A stretch of 64,000 nucleotides of DNA, from contig JAIQDT010007637.1 of assembly GCA_021521415.1 (NCBI GenBank), forward strand, positions 53,250-117,249, given 5' to 3'. The notes beneath the pieces were generated by a model that saw nothing but the letters and a program-made list of their open reading frames with translations, was not told where the DNA came from and did not search any database. Below are positions 12,996-64,000 of this stretch, one piece after another (position 1 is the first letter of the stretch; each line of letters begins with the position of its first letter). The position numbers were made by a program, and so were the translations under genes. Origin of the DNA: Bidens hawaiensis. Its lineage: Eukaryota > Streptophyta > Magnoliopsida > Asterales > Asteraceae.

Positions 12996-13219
12996 TGATG
13001 CAGTTTTGGAAGCGATCAATGGCTCAAGACACTCGTGATAATCAAAGACAATAATTTGAACCAAAGTTTCAAGAACAAAGTTCTTATTAATTATAATTCA
13101 ATATCAAAAACTAATGAAAACTTAACAACCTTCAACCCTATTTATAACTAATATATGAAAAGATAAATATGGAAACTAGATAAATTAAAATAACTCAAAT
13201 AAGGAGATAATCTGAATCA
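12996..13219 (-). repeat. 3' LTR of the short element
   Basis: Direct copy of 14396-14638, sharing TTTTGGAAGCGATCAATG and the terminal AAGGAGATAATCTG. Polypurine tract lies just right of 13219 (minus-strand upstream). Confidence 0.8.
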
Positions 13220-13826
13220 TACTCCCCATCTTTGAAAAAAACTCGTCCTCAAGTTTTACCTTCGAACGGAAGCCACTCGGATCAAACGGAAGATCAACCT
13301 GATTCTTATTTAGTATCATCGCCATCAGCTCACTAGACAGTTCACCTTCATTGGTCGTTTCGCCGCACTCTGGAACAATGCCACCTGGGTCGAAGGGATG
13401 GCTGAATCGATTCTCGTTTGCTATCAATTTTGGGCTCACACATTTACAACTATCAAAACCTTTTCGTGGACCATCATTTGATTTCAACTTGACAAATAAG
13501 TTTTCAACCGACTCATCATTTTCAATCTTTTTATCCTTGGAATTATCTTTTCCAATTACCAAATATGCATGCTTCCCACGTGGATTACCACGTTTATCAC
13601 CCACAACATTATCAAAAGTCAAATCACCATAATTATTAGCCATATTCATAATGCAAATAACACAAGATTCTCCAATTACTTGATAACCTATTCTCTTTTT
13701 AGTTTCCACCAAATTAGCCTTAGTCAAATCTCCTTCCATTTGAATTCCCATATTATCAGGAAAGTTGGTAGGACTTATCATGGACGGATAATGAGGCCCA
13801 GTAGGAGCCATCGAACCACCTAACAC
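13185..13826 (-). CDS. Gag/polyprotein-like frame of the short LTR element, function unknown
   Basis: Open frame of 213 codons that runs into the 3' LTR. It has an internal repeat of PFDP (SHPFDPGGIVPE and DLPFDPSGFRSK) and a Lys/Asp-rich middle. No catalytic motif, zinc knuckle or membrane segment is visible. Sequence to its right, read through stops in a related frame, resembles linker regions of Gypsy polyproteins, so this may be a shrunken gag-pol remnant. The role is not known. Confidence 0.5.
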   Translation of the reverse strand: MLGGSMAPTGPHYPSMISPTNFPDNMGIQMEGDLTKANLVETKKRIGYQVIGESCVICIMNMANNYGDLTFDNVVGDKRGNPRGKHAYLVIGKDNSKDKKIENDESVENLFVKLKSNDGPRKGFDSCKCVSPKLIANENRFSHPFDPGGIVPECGETTNEGELSSELMAMILNKNQVDLPFDPSGFRSKVKLEDEFFSKMGSMIQIISLFELF

Positions 13827-14179
13827 CGTAAGAACATCACCATTTTTAACGATCGTACATTCTTCCTCATCTCCATACTTGTCATATATGGGTTGAGATG
13901 CATAGATAAAATCATCACCGTAATGATACTCCTTCCCAGAATACTCATCTTCAGGGAAATCAATCCTGTCGTCATATAAAAAGGGATCTACTGACGAACA
14001 ATATTGATTTATCGGTTCGTAGAACTAGGGTAGGTGAACGCCAAACGGATGCGGCTCTCCATCGCCACCTTTGTCCCAGACGACGGTGCTCGACTCGGTT
14101 TCCGCCTTGCACATCTCCTGTTGTAATTCAAGATAGCGGACTCGTTTTCGGAGCCTTCAATCTCTTCAAGGTCATGTAC

Positions 14180-14395
14180 TCATTGTTGGAGTCGTTTGAT
14201 ATTCTTAAGATCTTGTGGGTCGGAACATACTCCACCGCTGCCTCGGTCGGTGACTCTGCGAGGAGGAATTCGATCTTCACCACGAGCAGGTGAATAGAAA
14301 ACACTTATGTCGTTGCCTCTGTCGGAGACTCTACGATCAAACAAGTATTCACCTCCATGTCGAGCCATTTGAGAACCAAAATCTCTGATACCAAC
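14180..14395 (-). pseudogene. N-terminal gag-like frame of the short LTR element
   Basis: Begins just inside the primer site (MARHGGEYLFDRR) with two similar Arg/Asp-rich units (RRVSDRGND and RRVTDRGSGG), and ends in a short helix DLKNIKRLQQ before a stop. It resembles the charged N-terminal region of some Gypsy gags. Continuation into 13185-13826 needs frame changes. Confidence 0.45.
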
Positions 14396-14396
14396 T
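14385..14396 (-). other. Primer binding site, initiator tRNA-Met type
   Basis: The minus strand reads TTGGTATCAGAG immediately after the LTR end, the common plant LTR element primer site. Confidence 0.75.
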
Positions 14397-14638
14397 GATG
14401 CAGTTTTGGAAGCGATCAATGACTCAAGACACTCATGATAATCATAGACGATAATTTGAACCGAAGGTTTAAAAACAAAGTTCTTATTTATTCTAATTCA
14501 ATATCAAAAACTAATGAAAACTTTAACAACCTTCAACCCTATTTATACTAATACATGAAAAGATAAACATGGAAACTAGATAAACACAAAATAATAAAAG
14601 ATATTAAAATAACTCAAATAAGGAGATAATCTGCATCA
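14396..14638 (-). repeat. 5' LTR of the short element
   Basis: 243 bp, TGATGCAG to TGCATCA, followed by the duplicated target GATCA. Confidence 0.85.
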
Positions 14639-23602: not shown

Positions 23603-26533
23603 CATTATTTTTTCACAGTATAAACAAACCGGTAACTACAAGGCAAACCGGTAACTACAAGGCAAAACGGACTGACTCCATTCTTTGCTTTCGTTGTTAG
23701 GGTTCTTTGCTTGGAAGATTAAAAACACATAACTTTCATTTATAGCTTTTACATTAAAAATACAAACATTAAATCGTTATCGCATATTCGTAACTCAAAA
23801 ATACAAACATTAAAGAATGCTTAGACACGATTACATTAACAACTTGCTGTTTCTTACTCATTATTTGCCTCCATGTTTGCTGTTTCTTTAACTAATTTTC
23901 TTCGCTACCCGATCCCGAGCTATTCCTTAGGTAATCGTCGTACGCGGCTTCTTCATCGGTCATTGGTTGAGTGTGTCCTTGATTGACCTCGTCTTCATAC
24001 AAGCCCGCCTCATAGTCCATTTCCCCCTCGAGTGAGCGTTGATGTTGTGCCCTATCTAAAGAGTCCAAGTAATCCTTGTAGCAAATCGACATCTCTACAG
24101 CTGGTGGAGTGAGTCGAGTCCTCCTAATCGATATAACCCTGCCAGAAACAGAAAAAGCAGACTCCGAAGCTACCGTAGTAGCTTGGACCGTTAGTAAATC
24201 TTTGGCCATGGCGGCGAGGATCGGAAACTCATCCTCCTTACCTCTCCACCAAGCCAGCAAATCAAGACTTCTAAATTCATCCGGAGTCATGTGTTTCACA
24301 AAGTTGGTACCACCATACCTTCCAAGTTCACTGCTTGGGGTGTTTACCTTTTGACGTTTACCGGCGTCTTCCCAAATCATGTAGTACATCCCCATTTCAA
24401 GGTCGGTTTGGGATTGGGATTGGGCAACAGCTCTTAACAAGTCATGAATTTGGGAAGACGACCCGTATTTTGTAAGGTAAACATCATACATGTTTGACAA
24501 GGTGGTGTTGAAAGCATTCTTTAAAGTTTGATTATAATAGGGGTTTTGATCGTCGTTTAACTCTAGCTCATCACAAATTTTTTCTATTAATGCTTCAACA
24601 CCACCAACATTGATGCAAGGGTTTAACGCAGCAGCACATGTCAAAACAGCGGGTAGTTCTTGAAAATATTTTCTAAATTTTTCTTTCATTTTTACACCTA
24701 TATCAAAATAAGGTGCACCCCTACAATGAAGTTCACTCAACTTTGTGCACATGACAGCAATTTTTGGTAAAGCAATGGGGCTTGTTGGATAGTAAACCCC
24801 GGATAAACTAGTTGTGCAAGATTTAAAAATTTGAATGACCTCCGTAACGATCTCAATCAATAACCAGTTTCTAGGATCGTACGGTGCACATTTACCCCTA
24901 CTTGACAAAACTTGATGAAACGCAATTAATGATTCTTTTTGTTGGATGGCTTTCTCAAACATATCACAAGTCGAGTTCCATCTTGTTGGACAATCCCAAT
25001 TTGGCCCCAACCATTGACAATTAGCTTCTACACAAAATTTTTTGTATCTTGAAAATGTTGTATTGTTGCTAAAAACATCTCGTAACATTCTTTTAAAATT
25101 GTTTCTTTGCGTTTCGATCACGTTTAACCCATCTTGCACGGCCAAGTTGATAATATGTGCAATGCATCGGCTATGAAAAAACGCTCCATCACAAATAGGT
25201 TTATACTTTAATTTTAAATTGCCAACCGCGGCCGTATTGTTGGACGCGTTATCAAACGAAATTGAAAAGATTTTATGTTCAATCTTGTATTGTCGAATGA
25301 CTTTATCCAAGAGTTTAAAAATATTTCTACCCGTGTGCGGGTAATCAAACAATTGAAACGCAACGGTTCGTTTCATCATTTGCCACGACTCGGGGTCAAC
25401 CCAATGAGCCGTCACACAAATGTATGAGTCGGGCGAACCATTAGGTACCGACCACACATCCGTTGTTAAGTTTACACCAGTTTGTAAGTTTGAAAAGTAT
25501 GAAATTAGTTCGGATTTAGCGTTTTTCCATGCTTTAAGACAATCTCTTCTAAGGGTCGAACGACTTACGTGTTGGTAGCGTGGTTGAACATACTTTTGCA
25601 TCATCTCCGTGAATTGAGGGTTGTCGAAGTGGTTGAAAGGAAGTGTTTGTTGAATCACAAAGTTTGAAAACTGTTGACGTACCGCTTCAAGGTCGTACGT
25701 AAACACCATTCCTTGATTCGTCATCTCCGGCTGCGAACTACTTCCCGATTCGTCCTTCAAGGCCTTGCAAAAGGGCCTTTGTACATGCGCTTTTAAAGTG
25801 GAGTTTGCATCTTTGCCATAAAACTTCAAACAATGTTTGCATCGAGCTTTTTGGCTACCGTTAGACATTTCGCATAGGTCGAAATGTTGCCAAACATCTT
25901 GGTTTCGTTTCGTGGGGATGACCCGAACGACCGTTTCTCCCGTGTTCGAGGCACCCATGTTGACGGATGAAGCAGCACTTTGAGAGGCCATGATAATCGA
26001 CTACGAAATAAGAGCGTATGGAGTGGTAATGTGGTATAATTGAGCGTGAGATAACAAAATAATCGCGTATGAAATAAACGTTTAGAGCGTTTGGAGTTGT
26101 ATAATCGAGTGTGATCTAACCAATACCCAACCTAAACTATATATAGATGTTTGTGGGGGTAAAATGGTAAAAAAAAAAAAAAACGGTCAAAAAAAAAAAA
26201 ACGGCTATATAGCCGTTATACAACGGAAAAAAACCGGTTTTTAACCGGTTAACCGGTTATAAAAAAACCGGTTAACCGGTTTTTTTATAACGGTCAAAAA
26301 CCGGTTTATAAAAAAACCGGTTACCGGTTTTTTTATAACCGGTTATTAAAAAAAACCGGTTTTTTTATAACCGGTTCGTTAACCGGTTTTGGCTCTAAAA
26401 CGTGTAACCGATATACAAACCGGCGGTTTGTAAACCGGTCAAACCGGTTTTTAAAAAACCGCTTTTCTTAAAAACCGGTTTCCGGTTTAAACCGGCAAAC
26501 CGGTTCCCGGACCGGTTTTTTTGACCACCTCTA
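23346..26533 (-). mobile_element. Complete hAT transposon (3188 bp) with perfect 8-bp duplication
   Basis: The target duplication GGTACAAG is exact at 23338-23345 and 26534-26541. Termini start TAGAGGTG on both strands. Each end holds many copies of ACCGGTT or AACCGGTT in both orientations (23361-23660 and 26220-26530), the likely subterminal transposase-binding sites. The single gene is an uninterrupted transposase on the minus strand. The perfect duplication and intact frame suggest a fairly recent insertion; autonomy is inferred, not shown. Confidence 0.9.
23892..25991 (-). CDS. hAT transposase (BED zinc finger, RNase H-like, dimerisation domain)
   Basis: Uninterrupted 699-codon frame. 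A BED finger lies near residues 28-80 (Cys51, Cys54, His69, Cys75) and would bind element ends. The RNase H-like catalytic core has Asp178 in NLTTDVWSVPN and Asp247 in SISFDNASNN; the insertion domain shows SRCIAHIINLAVQDGL and CPTRWNSTCDMF. The C-terminal hAT dimerisation domain includes LDLLAWWRGKEDEFP and VASESAFSVSGR (Glu near 610). The tail is acidic (EDEVNQ, SGSGSEEN). Domain order and length fit Ac-like/RICESLEEPER plant hATs. No intron is needed. It acts in the nucleus, cutting and rejoining DNA. It is the only intact transposase here and could act on hAT-type MITEs with TAGAGG or TAGGGG ends. Confidence 0.93.
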   Translation of the reverse strand: MASQSAASSVNMGASNTGETVVRVIPTKRNQDVWQHFDLCEMSNGSQKARCKHCLKFYGKDANSTLKAHVQRPFCKALKDESGSSSQPEMTNQGMVFTYDLEAVRQQFSNFVIQQTLPFNHFDNPQFTEMMQKYVQPRYQHVSRSTLRRDCLKAWKNAKSELISYFSNLQTGVNLTTDVWSVPNGSPDSYICVTAHWVDPESWQMMKRTVAFQLFDYPHTGRNIFKLLDKVIRQYKIEHKIFSISFDNASNNTAAVGNLKLKYKPICDGAFFHSRCIAHIINLAVQDGLNVIETQRNNFKRMLRDVFSNNTTFSRYKKFCVEANCQWLGPNWDCPTRWNSTCDMFEKAIQQKESLIAFHQVLSSRGKCAPYDPRNWLLIEIVTEVIQIFKSCTTSLSGVYYPTSPIALPKIAVMCTKLSELHCRGAPYFDIGVKMKEKFRKYFQELPAVLTCAAALNPCINVGGVEALIEKICDELELNDDQNPYYNQTLKNAFNTTLSNMYDVYLTKYGSSSQIHDLLRAVAQSQSQTDLEMGMYYMIWEDAGKRQKVNTPSSELGRYGGTNFVKHMTPDEFRSLDLLAWWRGKEDEFPILAAMAKDLLTVQATTVASESAFSVSGRVISIRRTRLTPPAVEMSICYKDYLDSLDRAQHQRSLEGEMDYEAGLYEDEVNQGHTQPMTDEEAAYDDYLRNSSGSGSEEN

Positions 26534-44488: not shown

Positions 44489-44873
44489 TGTCACACCCCG
44501 ACTAGCACAATGCAGAAGCGTAAAACGGGAATGTAACAGACACCTCTGGTATCACCACATTGTTTATAAAGAAACATTATAAACTGATTTACAATATATT
44601 ACATTTCTTTGTTCTATCATTGTTTTACAGTCTAGGTGATACAAACAAAACTAGTTCGTTAACTATACATTTTTACTACTAACGCCCTTGCCTCTATTCA
44701 CATAGCATCAACCACACACCTTGGGCAAGTAACAGATCACCAAATCATTCCGATTTAGGTACACCTAAAAAGCAGTTTAAAACGGGTCAACTACTAGAGT
44801 TGGTGGGTTTCACGAGTTTCAAGAAAATAGTAATGAGTAGTCACAAGTCAACACTTGTAATAATGAAATAAGT

Positions 44874-44899
44874 ATGTATGTATGTATGTATGTATGTAA
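44874..44899. repeat. GTAT microsatellite
   Basis: Six or more GTAT units within the solo LTR. Confidence 0.85.
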
Positions 44900-47800
44900 A
44901 TGATTGTATGTGCCGCGTGCATCCATTTCCCACGCTCCATCAACCATTGTGGCCCCTTTCCGCCCACAACATGCCCCGGTAGCTATGTCTAACACTACAT
45001 AGCCTGTTTGTATAAATATGTTCATGTGCAAACGGGGCTATGTGACACGGCAACCAAGCCGATTCCGTTTGGGTTTGTCTAACCAATAGTACTATTCACA
45101 AGCCACCGGCTCGAAGTTAATCACTGTGATCGTAGGGACTTTCGTGTGTTAGCACTTAGATAATTCACATCAATACATGTTTCAGGTATGTATATGTAAT
45201 CAAACATGCTTTTCACCCCAAAAGTTCGTAAAATAGTTTAAAAGTGGGGTCATGAAACTCACGGTTTAGTAGATAATCAGTACTGTATCAGCTCGTGGTT
45301 TGTTCGGTCCGCTTATCAATAGTTCCTATAATAAATATTATAATAATATTAATATTTTAATATTATTATAATCTCAATACTAAACTGGGTTGTATAACTA
45401 ATCTGGGTATAGTTGGAATGCCCAGAAAGTGGCAATAGGCTTAGGTTGTGATGTTGTTCAATGTTTAATACTTAAAACCGAACTTGGCTCAGATTCCCGT
45501 TTTCCCAGCTGGGCCAAGTTGTTCGTTTACGCGTTCAGAAAACAGTTATGGGGAAATATGATTGGGTAAATGTATTAGTTAACAAAATGATTAAGTTATA
45601 AAGAAAGATCACATACTGGGGTCTCGAATTAGCCACAGGACCCGTTTCCGTTTATTCAGTTTGGTTTGAGAAGAAACGCGCACAATCCACCCGGAATGTC
45701 CAGGTTTCTCATGGAAAAGTTCATTTTCACTTAATTAGTCCAAAAATATGATTTTTGATCACTCTTGGTGTTTTGATATTCCCGCAGGTTTGTTAGTCTC
45801 GAACTTGCCGGTTTTTATAAAAACTGAATTTGTTTAATATTCAAATTAGCATAATTAATTAACCGTTAATCATTAAATTATGAAAATTTAACCACTTATC
45901 AATTAAAATATTTATATTTTTATAAAAATATTTATGGAATTATTTATTGATTTATTAATTTATAAAAATTCATTTTATCAGCTATATTTCGCCTGAAAAT
46001 CGTCCGTTTCCCCCAAACAATTTCCAAAAATTCCACAAAAATTCCTGTATGCTCAAATAATGTCCCAAATCAACCTGTATCAATTTCAAAATGTAAATAG
46101 TTTGTGCGATATTCTTTTCGGCTATAAAAATTCACACGAACGCATATAAACAAAACACCTTTAAACTTCTCCAAACGATCCCAAAATTCGTATGTGATCA
46201 AAATACATCAAATATGTGTTTCCAGAAAAATTTCATAATTTTTGAAGTATTTTAGCTATTTTTCCCAAATAAACGTCCCAATTCGGTAATAAATTCTACA
46301 AATATTATCGGATGGTCGAAAAATTACCAAATTTGAACAGGGACTCATTGACATGGTCCCTGATGTCCCTACAAAATTTAAAGTCCTAAAAATATGCACA
46401 TCATAACCTTAACCTAAATAGCCCGTAAGCAAGTGTTTTGGCATTACCTTAGCGGGTTTGGCTCGTTTCCGACTTTTTAATTAAGTTTTCAGGTTCTTGT
46501 GCTTCTAAGAAAGCTAGGTACAAGTCCTATATCACAAACCAAGCAATTTTTCATCAACATAACAGCCCTTAACTTAGGGTTTCGGCTAGTGCACAAAAAC
46601 GAATTTTTGAACCGTAAAAACGCCGTTTCAACCCTTTAATCCGTGTTTATGGCCAAAAAAAACTATCAAAACAGGTTCCTTACCATGTGTATGATCAAAA
46701 AATGTTTATGGATCATTTTTGGATTTTTACATGGTTAGGAATGATTTTTAGTAACCAAGACATGTTTTTATGGTATTAATCAAGGTTAAACAAGTACAAA
46801 AGCTACTTATTTGAGCTCCTTACCTTAGGGTTTGAAGGATTTCTGGAAAATTAGCTTTCAGCTGCTTGAACCTCAACTTTTATTAACCAAAATGAATAAA
46901 CAAGCTTGTAAAACAAGTTTTATAAAAAGAATGGGGGGTGGGGGTGGGCTGTTCGATCGGAACCCCCTTATGGCTCATGATGGGCTGTTTTGGCCCAATG
47001 ATCTGGTTTCTCAAGCCCAAATACGAAAAGCCCGGTCCAAATTTAGTTCGGGTTCGGTTTTTGGCGCGAAAAACTTATCAGGTGCGTTAAACAGCACGAA
47101 AACAAGTGTTTTTCGGCTAGTTTTGTGTAAAATTATAAAAACATACTATATGTTTGTAAAAATCAAAAATATTTTCACGGATCGCTTAAAACATTTCAAG
47201 TAAGTGTTTGGTAAGTATTTTTTGGCTTAACAGATGATACAATGCTTGGTTTGTAACTATCTTTTGCGTTTAAATCTATAGCGGGTTGTTAAACGAGCAT
47301 ATTTTCGTTTAACTTGTTTGCTATAAAACTAAGACCATATTTCTAATATTTTAGCTTGTATAGATCGTATATCACTTATAGATGGCCCCCCTGAGATATC
47401 TGGGTCATAACCCGACCCGTTCGATTAATCGTTCGTTTGTTACGCAAAAGGCGTTTATGTAACATCCTAAAATTTTTATAATGATAAATAAAAGAAAGTT
47501 ATGTTTAGTGATTTCACGTTTTAGTTATTTAATGTCGAGTAAGGAACGGGTCATGGGCTTAGATTACGTAAGATGGGTTAAATGAGAATGGGCCTTGGGC
47601 CCGTGGGCTCGAGAGTTACTACCACAAGACCCTACCTCCCATTTTTCACTAACTTCCTTCCACTCCCACACCCAAACACTCTCAATTCTAGAGAGAGAAA
47701 CTAGAGAGAGAAAGTTCTCAAATCACAAATCCGAGTCCACAATCTTGTTCCTAATCATTTTGGTAAGTCCCTCTCGAAAATCATCCGTTTTCATAACCAT

Positions 47801-48026
47801 TTTCGGCCTCAAATCGAGCAAAAACTCCCATTTTCGTAACTTGAGTTTTCGGGTCAAAAACCGTCTTGTTTTGGTGTCAAAATGCAACTTTTGATGTTTA
47901 AAATCACTGGGAATCGATAGCCCTTTCAATCCCGAACATTTCCATGTCAAAAACTTCGATTTTGGGTCAAAAATCTGGAAAATCCGGAAAACCCGTAGGT
48001 TTCTCCGTCGCCCAGCTTGAAGGCGT

Positions 48027-48345
48027 CGAATCAGTCCATTCGATCGAATGAGTCAATCGAATCAGTCCATTCGATCGAATGAGTCAATCGAATCAGTCCA
48101 TTCGATCGAATGAGTCAATCGAATCAGCCCATTCGATCGAATAGGGAAGCAACCGAATGGTCTCCATCTTATTCGACCGAATAAGCTGCATATTCGACCG
48201 AACGAGTTCCGATTCGATCGAACAAGTGCCATGTCCGACCGAACGAGTTTTCCCAACTGGTTCGATCGAGTGTGTGTCTAGTTCGATCGAGTGTGCCTCA
48301 GATTCGATCGAATATGTCCCTATTCGATCGAATCAAGCCAGAACC
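48027..48345. repeat. Array of the palindrome TTCGATCGAA
   Basis: Four tandem units of 31 bp (48027-48150, unit CGAATCAGTCCATTCGATCG...) run into irregularly spaced TTCGATCGAA decamers and one-base variants (TTCGACCGAA, TTCGATCGAG). At least seven perfect decamers are present in 320 bp. Confidence 0.9.
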
Positions 48346-48889
48346 AAGTTGTTTCCAAGATTCGCCTGAAGTGAAGTTCGTTTATGAAATAAATTAAAAA
48401 CCTAATGGAAAATGTGTTAAGGCGGTTATCGAAAATGAGTAGTAGTAATAGTAGTAGTGGTAATTGATATGTGTAAATATTATACAGTTAGCCGAGCCCA
48501 GTTAAAGAAAGGAATTACAATCAACGGCGAGCGTAACAGGATCCAGGTGAGTTTCTAGCCCCACTTATGTGTTATGTTTTCGGGGCTGTGTGCATACTCA
48601 ATATGTTTGTTAATACGCTTATCCTAAGAGATAAGTGTATGCCTTATGTGAATAATATGTAAGTACGAATGATTGCTTGATGGTGCGTGAACGATCTTCG
48701 GATATTGCACGTACTGTCAGGTTGTAAAGTTATGTATAAGGTAGGTATGTTATGTACGAATGATTGCTTGATGGTACGTGAACGATCTTCGGATATTGCA
48801 CGTACTGCCAAGTTGTACGCTAGCAGGAATGTAGATATGATATGTATGCTTATGTGTATGAATGTGATAATGTTAATAAAAGAAGGAAA

Positions 48890-49200
48890 TGACGGTTGTA
48901 TGGTTACGAAAAGGGTACCGAGCCCTAATAATACTCGAGGTATGATGTATGGTTGTATGGTAACGAAGAGGGAATCGAACCCTACTAATATTCGAGAACT
49001 AGGGAACCGAACCCTACTAATATTCGTGGAAAGAGGGAAACCGAGCCCTAATACTCGTGGAAAGAGGGAAACCGAGCCCTAATAATACTCGTGGAAAGAG
49101 GGTACCGAGCCCTAATAATACTCGAGGAAGGAGGGTACCGAGCCCTAATAATACTCGAGGAAGGAGGGTACCGAGCCCTAATAATACTCGAGGAATGTAG
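48890..49200. repeat. 33-bp tandem repeats (GGTACCGAGCCCTAATAATA)
   Basis: Units of about 33 bp, GAGGGTACCGAGCCCTAATA followed by ATACTCGAGGAA, are near-identical over the last three or four copies and more diverged to the left. Coding potential is absent. Confidence 0.85.
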
Positions 49201-49702
49201 GGCGTAACGCTCTTTATAACGTAAGATATGACAGTAAGTTAATACAGTATGAGAGTATGAAAGTATGAAAGTATGAAAGTATGAATGAAAGAAGATTATG
49301 TTATGTGAATAGTATGATTATGTGATTATCTAGAAATCACTCAGCGTAGCTGACTTTTAGTATGCACGCAGGTGAGTAGGATGAGGCAGCTCGCTTGAGG
49401 AGACACATGGCACCGAGCAAGAGCCTGGCATCTGATGATCTGATATGTTTTATAAGTTATGTTTTGATTTTGAAAGACAAGAGGAATGTTTTAAGACATG
49501 ATTATGAATTGTTATGTAATGTTTTATGAAAGTTTCATATTCCGCGTAAATGTTTTAATTAACTCTGATATTTAGAACTGTGTTTATGAGTAAATCCAAC
49601 GTGGAAAGTAGGGCTACCGGTAACGGGGCCTTACAGTTTATTTGCTTAATCGGTAAATACGTACTGAGGTGTACCTTGTTTTGGCTCAAATGTCACACCT
49701 AA

Positions 49703-52454: not shown

Positions 52455-52972
52455 TAGAGGCGGGCACAAAACCCAGTTCCAGACCTGACCCGACTCGTGT
52501 ACATGACCCAACTCACTGGTACGAACCAGGTTTCTGTTTCTTTCGAAACCGACTGGGACTGCCGAAACCGGTCAAGTCCTGGATCGATAATCAAACACGA
52601 ACTAAATGAATAAATCTTGTTTATATTAATCAGAAAATATAACTCAACAAACTGATTACATTTCTAAAACCCTAACTCGGTTTGACACTTGATGAACCTA
52701 ACTTGGTTGCATCTAGATGAACCCTAACTTGGTTACATCTCGTATGTGTCTCTAGATGAACCTTAAAACAGTTGCATCTCTCACGTTCTTCTATTGTCTA
52801 ACCATAACTCGGTTTATATAGACTAACCTAACTTGCTAGCCAAGACATTACCAAATATAATAAAACCCTAATTGCAACCCCATAAATCCATTACATATTA
52901 ATGAATCCCACGGCCTAATAGGTCCAACCTGGTCACCTACACGTGACTGGCCTATTAAGTTGGAAATTACAT

Positions 52973-53266
52973 CTAACAATCACTCCTTGCCGACTTGAAA
53001 TAGGTCGTCTTTGATTTAAACTTACATACTTTGACCTGTGTGGCTTGAGCCATGATCTTAACAATCTCGGCTTTTGCAACTCTCTTGGTCTTCATCATAT
53101 CGGTCTTGACGTCCAGGAACTCCTTTTGATCCATAGATGTGTTCTTTCGGCTCTCCCGAACTCGACTACTTCCATGACCCTGTCCCCGACCATTGCCTTG
53201 GTCGTATGAACTCGCATATCCACTCATCTGGCAACGATTCCAGTCATCTAATCGAGCGAACAACAA
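52973..53266 (-). CDS. Unrecognised frame in the short LTR element (gag-like remnant)
   Basis: 97-codon frame at the 3' end of the internal region, basic and Gln/Gly-rich (YDQGNGRGQGHGSSRVRESR), with a helix-forming stretch KTKRVAKAEIVKIMAQATQV. No catalytic or zinc motif is visible. Its position (3' of the primer site, before the purine tract) fits a shrunken gag. Could be non-functional. Confidence 0.35.
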   Translation of the reverse strand: MLFARLDDWNRCQMSGYASSYDQGNGRGQGHGSSRVRESRKNTSMDQKEFLDVKTDMMKTKRVAKAEIVKIMAQATQVKVCKFKSKTTYFKSARSDC

Positions 53267-53552
53267 TCTTCCTTTATCTTCTTTTTTTTTCCCGAATCAT
53301 AACAAGTGCACATCCTTCTTAAACCAAAAAATATCAAACCAACTTGTTTTTTTTTTTTCTGGATTTCCTCATGAGTCACCAAAAAAGAAAAGCAAAAATA
53401 TCAAAACTCCTTTTGACTTTTACAACCAAACAAACCAATCAAAGAATGTCTTTCTTTGCTTATAGTAGGTTAACATGCGAGAACCTTTATGTTTTTTTCT
53501 TCATAAAGCCGCAACCCCTTCTCCTTCTTTAATTACTATACACGAATAGTCT

Positions 53553-53804
53553 TTAGATCACAGGAACTTCCTTGGAAAGCTTAAGGAGAAACTGATCAGA
53601 CCCCTTGGACGAGAACAACTCCTCGCGTCTTTGATCGTCAACTATCAAGAAGCCACCTACAAATCTTCTACCGATGGCAAACCTCCTTTTTGATCGGTGC
53701 TTTCTTTGTTGGATTATTTTTCTTCTTCGTTGAAAGCAGATCACCTGAGCTTTTTTTCGCCTACCTTTGATTGAGCCCTCCTTACCGATCACGACTTTGA
53801 TCAA
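53553..53804 (-). CDS. Short basic frame in the short LTR element
   Basis: 83 codons, Lys/Arg-rich (RRRKIIQQRKHRSKRRFAIG). It is near the 5' end of the internal region, where gag would begin. No family recognised; may be an RNA-binding remnant or chance. Confidence 0.3.
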   Translation of the reverse strand: MIKVVIGKEGSIKGRRKKAQVICFQRRRKIIQQRKHRSKRRFAIGRRFVGGFLIVDDQRREELFSSKGSDQFLLKLSKEVPVI

Positions 53805-53872
53805 TGTCTTGAGTCTCTAGTCTCCTCCTTATCAATCACGACTTTGATTGATAAACACCAAGAGCGTAAACA

Positions 53873-53884
53873 CTCTGATACCAA
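53873..53884 (-). other. Primer binding site, initiator tRNA-Met type
   Basis: The minus strand reads TTGGTATCAGAG next to the inner end of the LTR at 53886. Confidence 0.7.
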
Positions 53885-54813
53885 TTCAACTCCTGGATCG
53901 ATAATCAAACACGAACTAAATGAATAACTCTTGTTTATATTAATCAGAAAATATAACTCAAAAAACTGATTACAACTCTCAAACCCTAACTCTTTTTGAC
54001 ACTTGATGAACCCTAACTTGGTTGCATCTAGATGAACCTTAACTCGGTTGCATCTCTCACGTTCTTCTATTGTCTAACCATAACTCGGTTTGTATATACT
54101 TACCTAACTTGCTTGCCAAGACATTACCAAATATAATACAACCCTAATTGCAACCCCATAAATCCATTATATATTAATGAATCCCACGGGTCCAATAGAT
54201 CCAACCTGGTCACCTACATGTGACTGGCCTATTAAGTTAGAAATTACGTCCAACAACCGGTTCCACCTCTAGACGATCAAAATCCTGACCCGCCCCGACC
54301 AAAAACCTATAAAAACCAGGCAAAAACCACCAAAAATCCGATCGAAAACCTGACCATACCGTATGCCATTTCCTACCCGACCCGGTTCTTGACTTTTATT
54401 GCCATACATGGAACCAGTTCCTACCTGGTTCTTTAAAAAAGCCGATTTGCCTACCTCTACTAGAGATAAGAAAATGGTACCAATTCATTACCCACTTTCT
54501 ATGATTTATGAGATCGGTACTTTTAGTAACAGTACCCATTTTTGATGATTTTCGAGACTAGTACGAAATGACGGACCTACCCTCTGGGTAGGGAGTCGGC
54601 CGACCCATGTGATTTTTTTTGGTAGTATATATGTGTAAAAGTCTTGCCCCACCCCGTGAAATTTTGATATCGAACTCTGTGGAATTTCAAAAACGATAGG
54701 ACGACCGTTGTAGAATTTTGAGAACCCCCATGAAATTTCAAAACCGACCATAATAAAAATAAATCTAAATATTACATTTATAATTCTAACTATATAAATT
54801 ATTTTTCTAATTA

Positions 54814-56979: not shown

Positions 56980-57702
56980 AGTAGTGTTTGGCATGAAAGA
57001 ATGGAGGACGGAATGGAATGACACATTGTGAGAGAATGGAAAAAAGTGTGTTTGGTTTATCTAAGGAATGGAATGACCCATTACCTAATCCCTTCAATTC
57101 TTTCTAAAACACTCCAATTTCATTCCGTCCATACTCCATGTTTTTTTTTTCACTCCATTCCCTCTTTCACCCTCCACCACCCTCCCACCACTACCACCCA
57201 CTACCATCAACACTCACCACCACCATCGCCGTTCACGCCACTGTTACCACCACCAACCATTTCCATTAGTGCCAGCCGCACACCCACGCCACCCGCCTGC
57301 CATCGCCATCAATCATTACCCCGTCCCTCACCACCACCACCCGTCACCCATCGCTCACTGTCACCGCTGCCTACCACCACCTCCACCGTTACCGTCACCA
57401 CCCACCACCACCCACTCCAGCCACCATTATTTCCCGTTGCCCTCCGCCACCCATTACCACCAACTACCATCACCGCCAACCAATGCCACGAAGGCACCTA
57501 CCTCCCACCACCGCCGCCACTCACTACCGTCTTAATCTTATTTTTTCTTTTTTCATACCTACCAAACAACGCAAAGTAATGATTCATTTCATTCTCATGT
57601 GGTAACCAAACATCTCATTGGAATGGTAATAGCCCATTCCATTCCTTTGTACTTTCCATTATCACGTTCATTCTATTCCATTACCTCATACCAAACAGTC
57701 TC
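56980..57702. mobile_element. PIF/Harbinger-type MITE with CCACCA-rich core, TTA duplication
   Basis: Left AGTAGTGTTTGGCATGA and right (reverse) GAGACTGTTTGGTATGA are inverted copies flanked by TTA at 56977-56979 and 57703-57705. Subterminal GGAATGGAATGA repeats occur in both orientations. The core (57170-57530) is CCACCA/CCACCG-rich. Same design as 22487 and 54814. Confidence 0.65.
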
Positions 57703-57705
57703 TTA

Positions 57706-58193
57706 GGATATTGAAATCTAAAATATCATTTGCATCAGTTATTTACATAATTTCAATATTATATTAACTTATTAATTTTATTTTTATACATATACAAAGA
57801 ATTAGGGTTACGTTAGTGTTACATGTTGGTTAGTACTTAATTATAGTAATTATTGTGGTTTATATTCAAAATAATAAATCTATGCACAAAATATATATTT
57901 TTTAAAAATACAGTATTTATTATTAAAATATGTTATAAAAAATTTATTAAGATTCACACCTTACTTTTAATGTAAATTAATAGAAATATTTATTATTATT
58001 TTTTTATTTTTTTATTATTTGTAACTTAATCATGCTACTCATTACATGGGATTATTATTCAAAATTTAAACATTCCTTATCCAATAGACCAATATTTTCA
58101 ACTATTATAAATAAGAATCACTACATTCATTTTATGCAACTTTAAATCTTCTAATATTCTGCTAACTCTGAAAAAATCATTGTTATTTGAACA
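57706..58193. other. AT-rich upstream region with TATA box
   Basis: No gene seen. TATAAATA at 58106-58113 lies 81 bases before an ATG at 58194, so this may be a promoter. Confidence 0.3.
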
Positions 58194-58430
58194 ATGGCGT
58201 TAAGGTTAGTATGTCTTTGTCATTTTTCTGGCAATTACATTCATATGAACTGAAACAAATCATTTTGTTATATTTTAATTTTTTATTTTTTATGTTGCCT
58301 GATTATACAATTGTTTATTACAATATATAAAATCAATTAAAATTTTATCATACACAGAATATTAATGACAATAAATTTATTGTCAGAAACAATCAGTGGG
58401 ATCAGTGGGAAGAGAGATGTTCGAGTTTGA
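58194..58430 (+). CDS. Candidate tiny two-exon gene or 5' remnant
   Basis: ATG GCG TTA AG at 58194-58204, then a GT-AG intron (58205-58357, acceptor ATACACAG), then 24 codons to TGA at 58430. The predicted 27-residue product starts MALRILMTINLLSETISG. Support is only a TATA box, a start and plausible splice sites. It may be the broken start of a host gene into which the CCHC/ARID sequence was placed. ATCAGTGGGAAGA occurs on both sides of the join (58400 and 58462 regions). Confidence 0.2.
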
Positions 58431-58628
58431 TCTTGGAGGGCAGAAAATAGTTAGAAACGATCAGTGGGAAGACCGGGGAAACCAAAGGTAATGTGTCTTC
58501 GTTGTCAAGAAACCGATCATATCGTTGCTTTTTGCCCAAGTAAGTATGTTGATGATTATGTGATACCACCCGGGATTAATTTTTCCGTAATTGGAACGGA
58601 TGGTAAAAACCCTAGTGAAATTTGGTAT

Positions 58629-61600
58629 TGTGACATTTGAGCCAAAACAAGGTACACCTCAGTACGTATTTATCGATTAAGCAAATAAACGCTTTTTGCG
58701 TAACAAACGAACGATTAACCGAACGTGTCGGGTTATGACCCAGATAATCCCGGGGGGGCCATCTATAAGTGATATACGTGTAATATAAGCTAAAATATTA
58801 GTAATATGGTCTTAGTTTGATAGCAAACAAGTTAAACGAAAACATGCTTGTTTAACTACCCGCTATAGATTTAAACGCGAAAGATAGTTACAAACCAAGC
58901 ATTGTATCATCCGTTAAGCCGAAAAAGACTTACCAAACACTTATTTGAAATGTTTTAAACAATCCGTGAAAATATTTTTTATTTTTACAAACATATAGTA
59001 TGTTTTTATAAATTTACACAAAAATAGCCGAAAAACGCTCGTTTTCGCTCCGTTTGTCGCACCCGATATATTTTTGTCGCCAAAAACCGAACCCGAAATA
59101 AATTTGGACTTGGAATTTCATGTTCGGGCACGTAAATCAAGAAAAGTGGGCCAAATGGGCCCAAAAAGTGGGCCCAACAAGCCAACCCGCCAAATTTGAA
59201 AAAAAAAAACTTTAATATTATTATTAGTTAATTAATATATATATAATAATCTAGATATTTTGTGTCCAAAATTTTCCAGAAATTTAACTTCTTCCCTGCT
59301 TTTCTTACACCAAAAACACCAAACCCTAAGGTAAGTAACTTATTTAAGCAACTTTTACACATGTTTAATCAAGTTTAATATCCTATAAACATGGTTTAAT
59401 TGCTAAAAATCATTCCTAACCATGTAAAAATCCTAGAAATGGTCCATAAACATGTTTTGATCATACACATGGTAAGGAACCTGTTTTGATAGTTTTTTTG
59501 GCCATAAACGCAGATTAAAGGGTTGAAACGGTGTTTTTACGGTTCAAAAGTTCGTTTTTGTGCACTAGCCGAAACCCTAAGTTAAAGGGCTGTTCTATTG
59601 ATGAAACCTGCTTGGTTTGTGATATAGGACCTGTACCTAGCTTATATAGAAGCACAAGAACCCGAAAATTGGATTAAGAGAGCGAAAACGAACCAAAACC
59701 GCAAAGGTAATACCGATTTACTCGATTACGGACTGTTTAGGTTAAGGTTGTGATGTGCATATTATTAGGACTTGAGATTTTTCAGAGACATCAGAGACCA
59801 TGTCATTGAGTCCCTGTTCAAATTTGGTAATTTTTCGACCATTCGAGAATATTTGGCGAATTTATTACCGAATTGAGACGTTTAATGGGGAAAAATAGTT
59901 AAAATACTTCAAAAATTATGAAATTTTTCTGGGAACTCATATTTTATGTTTTTTGATCACATATGAATTTTTAGATCATTTGGATAAGTCTAAAGGTGTT
60001 TTGTACATATGCGTTCATGCGAATTTTTTAGCCGAATTTGGGCTGAAAAGAATATTGAACAAGCTTTTTACATTCTGGAATTGATACAGGTTGTTTTGGG
60101 ACATGATTTTAGTATTCAGGAATTTTTGTGGAATTTTTGGAAATTGTTTGGGATAAACGGACGATTTTCAGGCGAAATATAGCTGATAAAATGAATTTTT
60201 AAAAATTAATAAATCAGTAAATAATTCCAGAAATATTTTTTATAAAAATCTACATATTTTAATTGATAAGTGGCTAAATTTTCATAATTTAATGATTAAC
60301 GGCTAATTAATTATGCTAATTTGAAGATTAAACAAATTCAGTTTTTATAAAAACCGGCAAGTTCGCGACTAACGAACCTGCGGGAATATCGAAACACCAA
60401 GAGTGATCAAAAATCATATTTTTGGATTAACTAAGTAAAAACGAACTTTTCTATGAGAAACCTGGACAATCCGGATAGAGTGTGCGCGTTTCTTCTTAAA
60501 TCAAACTGAATAAACGGAAACGGGCCCCAAGGCTAATCCGGTACCCCAGTATGTGATCCTTCTTTATAACTTAATCATTTTATTAACCAATACATTTACC
60601 CAAGCTTATTTCCCCATAACTATTTTCTGAACGCGTAAACAAACAACTTGGCTCAGCTGGGAAAACGGGAATCTGAGCCAAGTCGGTTTTAAGTATTAGA
60701 CATTGAACAACATCACAACCTAAGCCTTTTGTCACTTTCTGGGCGTTCCAGTTATACCCAGATTAGTTATACAGCCCAGTTTAGTACTGAGATTATAATA
60801 ATATTAAAATATTAATATTATTATAATATGGATTATAGGGACTAAGTGATAGCAAGGGAAACGAACCCCGTGCTGATCTCGCACTGAGTGCCTACAAAAC
60901 CGTGAGTTTCATGACCCCTCTTTTCAAACTGTTTACAAACTTTTGGGGTGAAAAGCATGTTCATATGCATTATCTATCTGAAAACGGTTCAGAACGAAAA
61001 ATACCTGAACTTTCATATATGAAAAATTCCTACAAACATAATGATAAACTACGTGCTGAGGAAAGGTGATTATCATCGTGATTGATATATTAAATGGAAA
61101 CACTACGAATGCCAAAACATAATGAAATCATACGTGACAACCTGTTTATACAAATACGCTATATAATGCTAACACAACAGGTTGAGGAAATAACGTGGTC
61201 TGTAATGGCCATTGGTGAATAACGTGGTCTGTAATGACCATGGGGCTATTGTTGGCGGAAGGGGGGGGGCCACAATAGTAATAAACTAAAGTTGAGTATG
61301 GCCTATGAGCCAAGTTCTGCTGCAACTTATAAACTAAAGTTAAGTATGGCCTAAGAGCCAAGTTCTGCTGCAACTTATAAACTAAAGTTGAGTATGGCCT
61401 ATGAGCCAAGTTCTGCTGCAACTTATAAACTAAAGTTGAGTATGGACTATGAGCCAAGTTCTGTTGCAACTTATTAAACAAACTAACTTGATTATGACAT
61501 GAATGTTAAGAAAATAATGTGATTATGCGTATTGTGGGCGGATGGGGAGCCACAGTATTGGTGATACGTGATAAATACTATATGTGTATATGTGTCTATA

Positions 61601-62331
61601 TACATGCTATGTGATTAGCCATAGGAAATACTATGTGTAGAATATACTAATTATTTGCGTGTACACTATATAATGTTTGAGTTTACGTGAATTATTGTGG
61701 GTGGAAGGGGGACCACAGTGGTTGATGTTAACGTGGAACCGTTGTGGACGGAAGGGGGGCCACAGTTGTTGATTTATGTGGAACCGTTGTGGGAGGAAGG
61801 GGGTCCAAAGTGGTTGGTTAAACACGGAAATTGGAAACAGGTAGTACGAACAAACAATCACGATTTTACCGAAATTTCGAATTCATATTATAAACTTACA
61901 TGTGTGCATATGCACACACAAGGATATGGCTTGTACATATTTATACAAACGTAAATACATATTTTTACATACGCGCGTACATACAAACTATGACTGTGTG
62001 GTACGCAGAACTGATTTCGTTAAACTTATGAAACTCACCACTATTCGTAGTTGACTTGTTTTAACATGCTTTTCAGGTAATCAGATATGAGAAGTAATTT
62101 CCTGTGCGTTACGTGTCTGACTGATGATTGATGTCGTGGGCATTTGAGTTAGAAGTAAAGTAATTGAAGAACTGGTTTGATTGTATCACCTAGTTTGTAA
62201 AAGATGTTAGAACGATGTAATATATTGTAAATTAGTTAGTAATGTTTCTTTATGAACAATGTATTTGATACCAGTTGTATCTGTTGCATTTCCGTTGTAC
62301 GCTTCCGCAATTCGCTTAACGGGGTGTGACA
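58629..62331 (+). repeat. Solo Gypsy LTR (3703 bp) with GGTAT duplication
   Basis: Starts TGTGACATTTGAGCC and ends TAACGGGGTGTGACA, flanked by GGTAT at 58624-58628 and 62332-62336. It is the inverted relative of the solo LTR at 44489-49697, and is longer partly through 48-bp repeats and repeats of GTGGGCGGAAGGGGGGCCAC type (61250-61810). It interrupts the CCHC/ARID frame between codons for Tyr and Val. Confidence 0.92.
61283..61474. repeat. 48-bp tandem repeat, four copies
   Basis: Units start AAACTAAAGTTGAGTATGGC at 61283, 61331, 61379 and 61427. Because 48 is a multiple of three, a false 111-codon frame appears on the minus strand. Confidence 0.9.
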
Positions 62332-63529
62332 GGTATGTTGATCCTCATGCCAAAAATCACTTTAATAAAAGTTTGTTTGTAAAGTTAAACGAATTTTTGG
62401 AATTCAAGACCAAGAGAAATCAGGAAAGTTTGTGTTTTCTCACGGTCTTGGAGAAATAAAAGTACCGGTTGATGGAAGGTTAAAGAAAATACCATGTGTC
62501 AGTTATAACCCGGAAACAGATAAGAACATCTTAAGTGTGAATAATTTGTTGTCTCAAGAAATCGAGACGATGATTCTTGGTGATCAGTGTGCGTTGAATA
62601 AGATGTTTGGGGGGAATAACAGGGTGGTAGATTCTTTCGGTGAAAGAATGAATCTGAATTAGAAAAAGATTATATGTGTTAGTTTAATAGTAAAAAAGGG
62701 GTTGAATCAAGTGATGAGTCGATGACTAAAGCATATAATCGGAAGTTTGATGAGATTATGAAGGAACTTGGTTCGTTTCATGAAAAGGAAATTAAGTTGG
62801 AACCGGAAGAAGAACCCGTAAAGAAGAAACGAGTTCATTTTGTGAAGGCAAAGAAGGCTTTGGCAAGGTATTTGGAAGCCATCAAAGAAAAACCCCATGT
62901 TACACATCATATCCTTAGAGACGATGTTTGGAAATATTCTCAAGTGATCCTTATTTGTCTATTGAAGAGTTTGACGACGATATCTCACGAGAAAGCATTA
63001 TAGACTTTCTTGATTTTGTGAAAATACATGAAAGGCTCATTAAGATTTGGAGATCCAGAAGCCCAAAGAATGTCTACCGGTATTGGCAAGCGGTAAGAAG
63101 GTTGATCTTTTGAATTTTAATATTCTGGTAAATGTTGAAGGTGGTTATGAACACGTGTGTAAAGAACATAAATGGGATCTTATGGCTATTCGATTGGGAT
63201 ATGAGTTTGGAGACGGAAAGACCTTAAAGTTGGCCTATGTGAAATATCTTGATCTGATAGATTGGTATTATCACGTTGTTAAAAGTGATGCAAAGTTTGG
63301 GGAAACAAACAAAGGGAAGAAAGATGCAAGCCAAGTATGGGGGGAAATAGTACATGTACATTTGGGGTTTTTCCACCAAGTTTCGGACCAAGTGGGTCAA
63401 ATAATGTTCAACTTCAAATTAAAAGGGAGCCAGGTTTGGATAGCGAGGACCCGAATGAAGACGATCTCGTCTACACGCTCATTAATGAAGATCCAAATGA
63501 GTGAAAGAACTTGAAGGACAAATGAATTA

Positions 63530-63544
63530 GGGGGGGGGGGGGGA
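63530..63544 (+). other. G14A tract, candidate polypurine tract
   Basis: Fourteen G followed by A, 26 bases after the ARID stop and directly before TGTTATCC. That is the position and form of a plus-strand polypurine tract of an LTR element. CAAATGAATTAGG just before and CCTTAATTCATTTG just after also form an inverted repeat around it. Confidence 0.45.
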
Positions 63545-63961
63545 TGTTATCCTTAATTCATTTGGGCTTGCTGTTAGTATTTAGTGTCTTTCGTTATATG
63601 TCAGTACGATTAACTTTGTTTGTTTTCAAGTTTGTTTTGTGTCTAGGCCCGTTTGGGTAGAAACTATTTAGGCCCGTTAGAGGCTGGTTTAAGTCCTGTA
63701 ATGGGCTTGTTTAATGTTTGTTGGGCTGCATGCTAACAAACATTAATATCTATCAGTTGCTTGAATATAGGGATGGTGGTTACAAACGGTTACCTCATAA
63801 CCGTTCTATGAAACATCACATCCTTTCAAGTAGTATATATAGGGAGAACATTCAGGAGGTTTTGTAATCATTATCATCAACATATGCTGTGTTTAATCAA
63901 TCTAAATTCCTGTTTATTCAATATATATTCTCTATATTGTTATTATACTTGGTGATTGATT
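63545..63961 (+). promoter_or_regulatory. LTR-like or promoter segment
   Basis: Starts TGTTATCC after the G-tract and carries a TATA box (TATATATAG, 63834-63842). It runs to an ATG at 63962. As an LTR it would be the 3' LTR of the ARID element. As a promoter it would drive the next gene with about a 90-nt leader. No primer site or CA end was found before the ATG, which weighs against a simple LTR. Confidence 0.4.
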
Positions 63962-64000
63962 ATGGTGTCCAAGAAATCGAAGTGTGATCCTGCAGAAAAG
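63962..64000 (+). CDS. Start of a frame cut by the window edge
   Basis: ATG followed by 12 open codons (MVSKKSKCDPAEK) about 120 bases after a TATA box. Too short to identify. It could be the first exon of another CCHC/ARID copy or of an unrelated gene. Confidence 0.3.
   Translation, partial: MVSKKSKCDPAEK

Follow-up and report, generated by a model that had tools for sequence, protein, structure and literature searches.

A stretch of 64,000 nucleotides of Bidens hawaiensis DNA, hereafter the window (assembly GCA_021521415.1, contig JAIQDT010007637.1 or C7637, positions 53,250 to 117,249 of the forward strand), ends with the remains of an element in which an ARID domain stands behind copia-related sequences. 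Positions 58407-63504 of the forward strand hold the remnants of a single former protein, read across overlapping frames, and are followed by a 3' long terminal repeat (LTR). This copy is dead: it is 5'-truncated, interrupted by a 3.7-kb insert, broken in frame several times and shortened by a small ARID deletion, and its 3' LTR is cut. It probably belongs to a family of small, non-autonomous LTR retrotransposons that is diverse and related to copia.

The ARID-bearing copy and its 3' LTR

A first-pass annotation, made from the sequence alone, had noticed a co-oriented series of frames at this place. These were indeed the pieces of one broken protein, since 62336-63501 could be read through with 5 events (changes of frame or stop codons), where dinucleotide shuffles required 14.0 ± 2.0 and none of 500 was as low. 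The same test was unremarkable upstream (10 against 10.4 at 57600-58454) and likewise in two stretches of the insert and in the LTR region. Equally open test windows numbered 77 out of 1258 over both strands, the best ones lying at hAT and retroelement frames.

Homology to relatives from the same genome (loci L039, 89%, and L041, 84%) begins only at 58407, so that the copy is considered 5'-truncated. This homology defined a first segment (58407..58628, +) composed of a basic stretch, presumably AT-hook-like, a CCHC knuckle and the onset of the protease-type domain as far as EIWY. The CX2CX4HX4C zinc knuckle announced earlier was found by eye at 58494..58535 (+), with the same pattern in relatives; taken alone, it scored weakly in Pfam (Lin-28A-like_zf-CCHC_2, 0.031). 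Its attribution to a retro-type gag holds for the knuckle and for nothing else, the rest of gag being absent and no capsid sequence being found in the window copy.

The part described as protease-like corresponds to the Pfam domain Pol_BBD (PF22936), which we take to be the copia protease region. It occupies 62337..62659 (+) in a broken frame and displays DPH at the position of the D[S/T]G motif. Its E value was 0.0037 on the single frame 62369-62659 and 3.9e-5 when two frames were joined with an X (profile positions 3-79 of 81), the latter at 24.3 bits versus 27 and thus below the cut-off. The sequence WYVDPH, read earlier as a modified copia protease start, is real, but the 3,703-bp insertion that divides IWY from VDPH had gone unnamed. 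Downstream, the expected charged linker (62683..62985, +) lies in an open frame of 106 amino acids (aa) and is homologous in L039, L041 and L042.

The ARID domain (62986..63325, +) is broken by a shift of frame and lacks a short piece that its relatives have, visible as a gap against L039 and L041. Its earlier identification was borne out by Pfam (PF01388), with an E value of 2.3e-8 on the unaltered frame 63044-63511 and of 2.2e-9 once helix 1 was added from the neighbouring frame with an X at the break (profile positions 6-85 of 89). The domain exceeded the curated score and was assigned the ARID fold; it also appeared in the genome-wide PF01388 search (C7637:116263-116499), and its best sequence matches in PDB were ARIDs of the KDM5/JARID1 type. 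Single-sequence structure prediction of the window ARID piece gave no confident fold (predicted local distance difference test, pLDDT, 35). Foldseek placed ARID chains on top, yet every E value was at least 0.001. The protein ends in an acidic tail (63326..63504, +) that contains, as had been reported, the motif IKRE (63418-63429) and closes with a TGA stop (63502-63504). Similar tails were encountered in L038, L041 and L042, and a second psi-K-x-E motif, IKLE, is present in the linker at 62791-62802.

Immediately downstream, a polypurine tract with 14 G (63530-63543) is included in an inverted repeat, CAAATGAATTA / TAATTCATTTG, that spans the LTR junction (63519..63564, +). Its 11-bp arm was equalled in none of 500 mononucleotide shuffles, and the purine tract followed by TGTTA occurred once in the window and in none of 100 shuffles. 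The 3' LTR (63545..64000, +), with a TATA-like box at 63834-63842, is ended by the contig end about 16 bp early as compared with L039 and L040; the assembly comprises 15,902 contigs for 3.47 Gb. Relatives' LTRs continue into a primer site. Near the window LTR no copia primer site was found beyond chance, the contig ending ahead of the place where relatives display theirs.

Related elements in the same genome

The PF01388 search, with E values up to 1e-3, retrieved at least 149 ARID matches in the 3.47-Gb genome, a lower bound since 150 of 286 candidates were scored. Nineteen loci, namely the top 18 matches and the twentieth, were read with 6.5-10 kb of surroundings. Six of them were ordinary ARID loci with either a JmjN-ARID-PHD organization (L009, L013 and L014) or ARID only (L011, L012 and L016), as judged from Pfam on L014 (first 324 aa) and L012, L009 and L013 being near-identical to L014. 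The other 13 were of a retro-type (L010, L015, L017-L026 and L028). Direct repeats of at least 90 bp bracketed 10 of these 13 loci versus none of the six ordinary ones, the frames of which were also devoid of CCHC-BBD. Bracketing LTRs were likewise observed in all four loci chosen for long ORFs (open reading frames; L030-L033) and in three of the five loci L038-L042.

Two full LTRs, 309-466 bp long and 91.5-98.1% identical, were present in 8 of the 13 retro-type loci, and a perfect 5-bp target duplication flanked seven of these eight (TATGT, ATAAT, GTTCT, GGTTT, TGAAC, ACCCT and AGATT). For L017, an automatic proposal (ATTTA) at ends mismatching its LTR was not counted, and the ends of L018 and L025 were read by eye because their LTRs start with TA. 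Additional duplications were CTAAT in L030, provided that the 5' LTR begins 2 bases ahead of the match, and those of L032, L033 and L040, which agree in four of five bases. Besides L018 and L025, LTRs beginning with TA instead of TG (TATTGG, TATTAG or TATTGA) occurred in L017, L019, L023 and L024. Apart from the window type, the LTRs fell into the families L010/L015/L021, L018/L019/L025, L022/L026/L029, L028/L033, L030/L032 and L031.

A primer site, TGG[TC]ATC, followed the 5' LTR in 10 of 10 cases, the longer match TGG[TC]ATCAGAGC (with CAGAGC) being found in nine of them. At the other end, the polypurine tract TTAAGGGG precedes the 3' LTR in relatives and is placed in the loop of the junction inverted repeat. 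This repeat was clear in 10 of 13 junctions, the window included, in the sense that at most 10 of 500 mononucleotide shuffles reached it; weaker junctions were those of L024, L025 and L028 (19, 20 and 82 of 500, respectively). Complete elements measured 2.0-2.6 kb, except for L017 (5.3 kb), which contains extra sequence. Kimura two-parameter (K2P) distances between the LTRs of 11 elements ranged from 0.020 to 0.081, presumably about 1 to 6 million years at the rates that we assumed. The relatives are thus LTR retrotransposons (class I, LTR order) by their LTRs, duplications, primer sites and polypurine tracts. The earlier suggestion of a non-autonomous LTR element carrying an ARID is sustained on these four points and by the uninterrupted CCHC-BBD-ARID frames described below; pol may have been traded for the ARID or have been lost beforehand.

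The window LTR itself had 39 matches in the genome, several of which were paired at element distance. Pairs with an ARID match between or beside them occurred in C1094, C150 and C14205, and single LTRs with an ARID match in C10062, C3608, C8266 and C12651. Five places picked by such matches were read (L038-L042). In L038 the LTRs (93.9% alike) bracket an internally deleted copy; in L040 (88.6% alike) the ARID between them is visible as DNA homology only. L039 retained its 5' LTR and primer site but only part of the 3' LTR, its reading frame being split in two (126 and 324 aa), and L041 consisted of an ARID and a 3' LTR. L042 (contig C10062; positions 294-2189 of the locus) is a chimera in which a copia gag/protease frame (354 aa, Retrotran_gag_2 2e-21) runs into the ARID half of an element, with a 3' LTR of the window type. 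Next to L039 (oriented 2635-2901) lies a piece of this copia gag that is 92.5% identical to the one in L042. The chimera and this neighbouring gag hint that recombination with a copia helper may have taken place.

Uninterrupted relatives, anticipated by the first-pass annotation, do exist: in L019 and L031, CCHC, BBD and ARID all scored above the Pfam cut-offs within one frame. The protease D[S/T]G was retained in none of the 17 copies readable at that position (DPH, DPL, DLA, NTS, NTC, NIN, NPS and NPN instead), a count that leaves out the copia half of L042 (DNG). Neither integrase, reverse transcriptase nor RNase H was detected by Pfam in 11 retro-type frames, and no pol enzyme was recognised by eye among frames of at least 70 aa in 10 elements. 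Copia gag was absent from the ARID-type frames scanned and present only in the gag frame of L042. There is thus good reason to believe that the family encodes a single protein, which is basic at its N-terminus, continues with a CCHC knuckle and a motif-less protease-type domain and ends in an ARID at the place where integrase and reverse transcriptase would follow.

Selection was addressed, as the first-pass annotation had advised, through ratios of nonsynonymous to synonymous substitution rates (dN/dS) in 28 within-lineage pairs (15 and 13 from two analyses), which are not independent. Values of 0.14-0.66 were obtained in 25 of them, and Fisher's test gave p < 0.05 in 19 of the 28. Examples are L019-L025 (0.34, p 1.6e-7), L033-L028 (0.32, p 1.3e-4), the ARID piece of L026-L022 (0.22, p 2e-11), L039-L041 (0.22, p 1e-14) and L042-L041 (0.14, p 6e-13). 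The window ARID piece gave 0.42, 0.19 and 0.27 against L039, L041 and L042, respectively. Eight pairs between sub-lineages were mostly saturated. This pattern fits constraint during multiplication of the elements and free decay after insertion.

Retro-type ARIDs formed at least six sub-lineages, some of them only about 30% identical. Those of the window type were about 37% identical to L012, and BLAST placed retro-type ARIDs nearer to L011, L012 and L016 than to L009. A first tree separated them from the host ARIDs on a weakly supported branch (61/54).

Other insertions in the window

The insertion that splits the window copy (58629..62331, -) carries TGTGACA at either end and is flanked by the duplication GGTAT (58624..58628 and 62332..62336). 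It is missing from L038, L039 and L041, and both flanks of its site align to L039 with a 5-base overlap, which corresponds to the duplicated target. A second copy with the same ends (44489-49697, -) is flanked by TTAGG on both sides and has received extra sequence. We read the insert as a solo LTR that is not part of the ARID element; its strand and gypsy-type origin are assumed. A window-type LTR relic (72%) at L017 (oriented 1871-2135) adjoins a sequence ending in TGTCACA, like this insert.

Three further elements were noted on the reverse strand. The first (12996-14638) is a complete small LTR element with an LTR pair, primer site TGGTATCAGAGA and target duplication TGATC. It contains an open frame of 279 aa (13185-14024) that matched no Pfam family at E 0.1 and is another non-autonomous element with an unexplained ORF. 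A second small LTR element (52572-54255), with primer site TGGTATCAGAGT and target duplication CCGGT, has about 0.9 kb inside and no listed frame of 110 aa. The third (23892-26000) is an uninterrupted hAT transposase frame of 702 aa with a BED finger and a dimerisation domain.

Interpretation and relation to known systems

Protein architecture, mobility signature, uninterrupted relatives and selection on the protein were all observed in this genome, and they suggest an overlooked class of mobile element with a recruited chromatin-type DNA-binding domain. In the mechanism proposed here, the LTR would drive transcription of the element RNA, which the element protein, judging from its motifs, could hold through the knuckle. 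A copia-type autonomous element would then supply reverse transcriptase and integrase. Such help in trans is very probable because pol is absent. The ARID and the basic tails might anchor the complex to the element's own LTR or to AT-rich DNA of the host, be it for nuclear retention, target choice or transcription; that the ARID acts as a DNA tether benefiting the element stands at about even chances.

Several observations weigh against this picture. L020, L023, L024, L041 and L042 displayed no bracketing pair in the stretch read (the first three have LTR-type sequence 3' of the ARID and no 5' partner there), of the 5' LTR, L019 retains no more than the last 204 bp and L022 the last 98 bp, and the primer site was unmatched in L031 and L029. 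The protease-type domain gave no confident predicted fold. Nine of the 28 dN/dS pairs were not significant, all ratios come from stop-free pieces and are biased to low values, and little constraint was apparent in L030-L032 (1.23), window-L038 (0.95) and the window linker against L039 (0.71). A second tree, with better window-type rows, recovered no clade of retro-type ARIDs, although one clade was not rejected (approximately unbiased test, p-AU 0.19), and the trees fit either one capture or several. No helper element was identified, no genome-wide search having been aimed at one.

A domesticated host gene family had also been put forward by the first-pass annotation. On this view, a piece of copia gag/protease with an ARID fused to it was taken over by the host and multiplied, and the window copy would be a pseudogene of that family. 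Uninterrupted frames under purifying selection would suit it, and so would L029 (1-8058), a tandem array of four ARID-element units, 98-99% alike and spaced by 1,969 bp, where neither a primer site nor a TTAAGGGG tract could be matched. Yet even these units are separated by LTR-type sequence that resembles (76-77%) the L022 and L026 LTRs. A 3' LTR belongs to the window copy as well, and most retro-type loci carry, around the frame, paired LTRs and target duplications together with a primer site and a polypurine tract. Since retro-type copies sit between LTRs and none of the six ordinary ARID loci is so placed, a host gene family is disfavoured; the LTR and target-duplication evidence largely refutes it, and we regard it as very unlikely. 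Mere neighbourhood of a copia fragment and an ARID pseudogene, conceivable in a window rich in transposon remains, is refuted by the continuous former reading frame, unmatched in 500 shuffles, and by relatives with the same order inside one frame; its probability is negligible. The separate-gene arrangement of the CCHC/protease and ARID parts, which the first-pass annotation had named as contrary evidence, was thus not what relatives displayed, and Pfam did detect the ARID.

Two other explanations accept the LTR element and differ on the ARID. An LTR element may have transduced part of a host ARID mRNA that has no function for it, in line with the three of 28 pairs at 0.71 or above. Transduction of host gene parts is established for plant LTR elements, maize Bs1 being the reported precedent: like it, the ARID elements are non-autonomous LTR elements bearing host-derived sequence, but they are set apart from Bs1, said to be low-copy, by one DNA-binding domain under selection across deep sub-lineages. 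A functionless passenger should decay, so that retention of the ARID across sub-lineages down to about 30% identity, with low ratios in the 25 pairs mentioned, makes this explanation quite improbable, in a sample where loci were found via the ARID and members that lost it would escape notice. Alternatively, the ARID came from an autonomous copia lineage with full pol, of which the small elements are deletion derivatives. The direct junction of copia gag and protease with an ARID part and a window-type LTR in L042, as well as the related gag beside L039, speak for it. On the other side, none of the 11 frames scanned with Pfam held a pol domain, elements of 2.0-2.6 kb are too small to hold pol, no window-type LTR lies within 2.7 kb upstream of the gag in C10062, and the small form was present in every sub-lineage read. 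We consider such a loss of pol unlikely, if somewhat less so than the other alternatives.

In its full form, the mobile-element reading is that of a long-lived enzyme-free LTR class that kept, over at least six sub-lineages, a cis-acting protein combining an RNA-binding knuckle, a disarmed protease domain and an ARID. It would borrow copia machinery and steer itself by a reader of AT-rich DNA, an ARID counterpart of the chromovirus chromodomain that was invented in a non-autonomous element. We propose this tentatively, its chances falling a little short of even.

Catalogues of plant LTR elements are built on polyprotein domains, and chromovirus chromodomains are fused to integrase. In the accessible part of a survey (PMC6317226), eight polyprotein domains are named, two of which are chromodomains, and the word ARID does not occur. 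As described there, chromoviruses (Ty3/gypsy) are, like the ARID elements, LTR elements with a chromatin-type domain and a presumed targeting role; the ARID elements differ in being copia-type and non-autonomous, with an ARID instead of a chromodomain and no integrase fusion. Sunflower has TR-type non-autonomous LTR elements (TR-GAG, TR-RT, TR-RT-RH, TR-RH and TR-INT-RT), which likewise consist of a single ORF, coding for some of the element proteins, between two LTRs; ARID is not among the domains that the available text describes for them (PMC9784723). Unlike these, the ARID elements lack capsid, reverse transcriptase and integrase, their ORF consisting of knuckle, protease-type domain and ARID. 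They belong to neither class, since a capsid is required for TR-GAG and chromoviruses are of the gypsy type. HadGAG1-3 and Ctrg10, plant GAG genes fused to part of USP7, to DEK C-terminal and PC4, or to NTF2, also join a retroelement protein to host domains, but are, in the same portion of that source, multi-exon genes without LTRs, whereas the ARID elements are LTR-flanked and multicopy (PMC9784723). No ARID-bearing retrotransposon was the subject of any paper among the titles and abstract openings listed by literature searches, often a small part of the papers found. The window ARID found no relative in a protein database (6, 33 and 41 word-sharing candidates, none of which scored), and none of seven pattern-matching stretches in viral contigs coded for one.

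Asteraceae genomes contain proteins annotated as ARID DNA-binding domain-containing. A multicopy ARID family under selection would show that a non-autonomous element can keep a DNA-binding protein of its own, and it would open to experiment the role of such a protein in an element that borrows its enzymes. It also cautions that, in genomes with such a family, transposons may swell the number of ARID genes counted.

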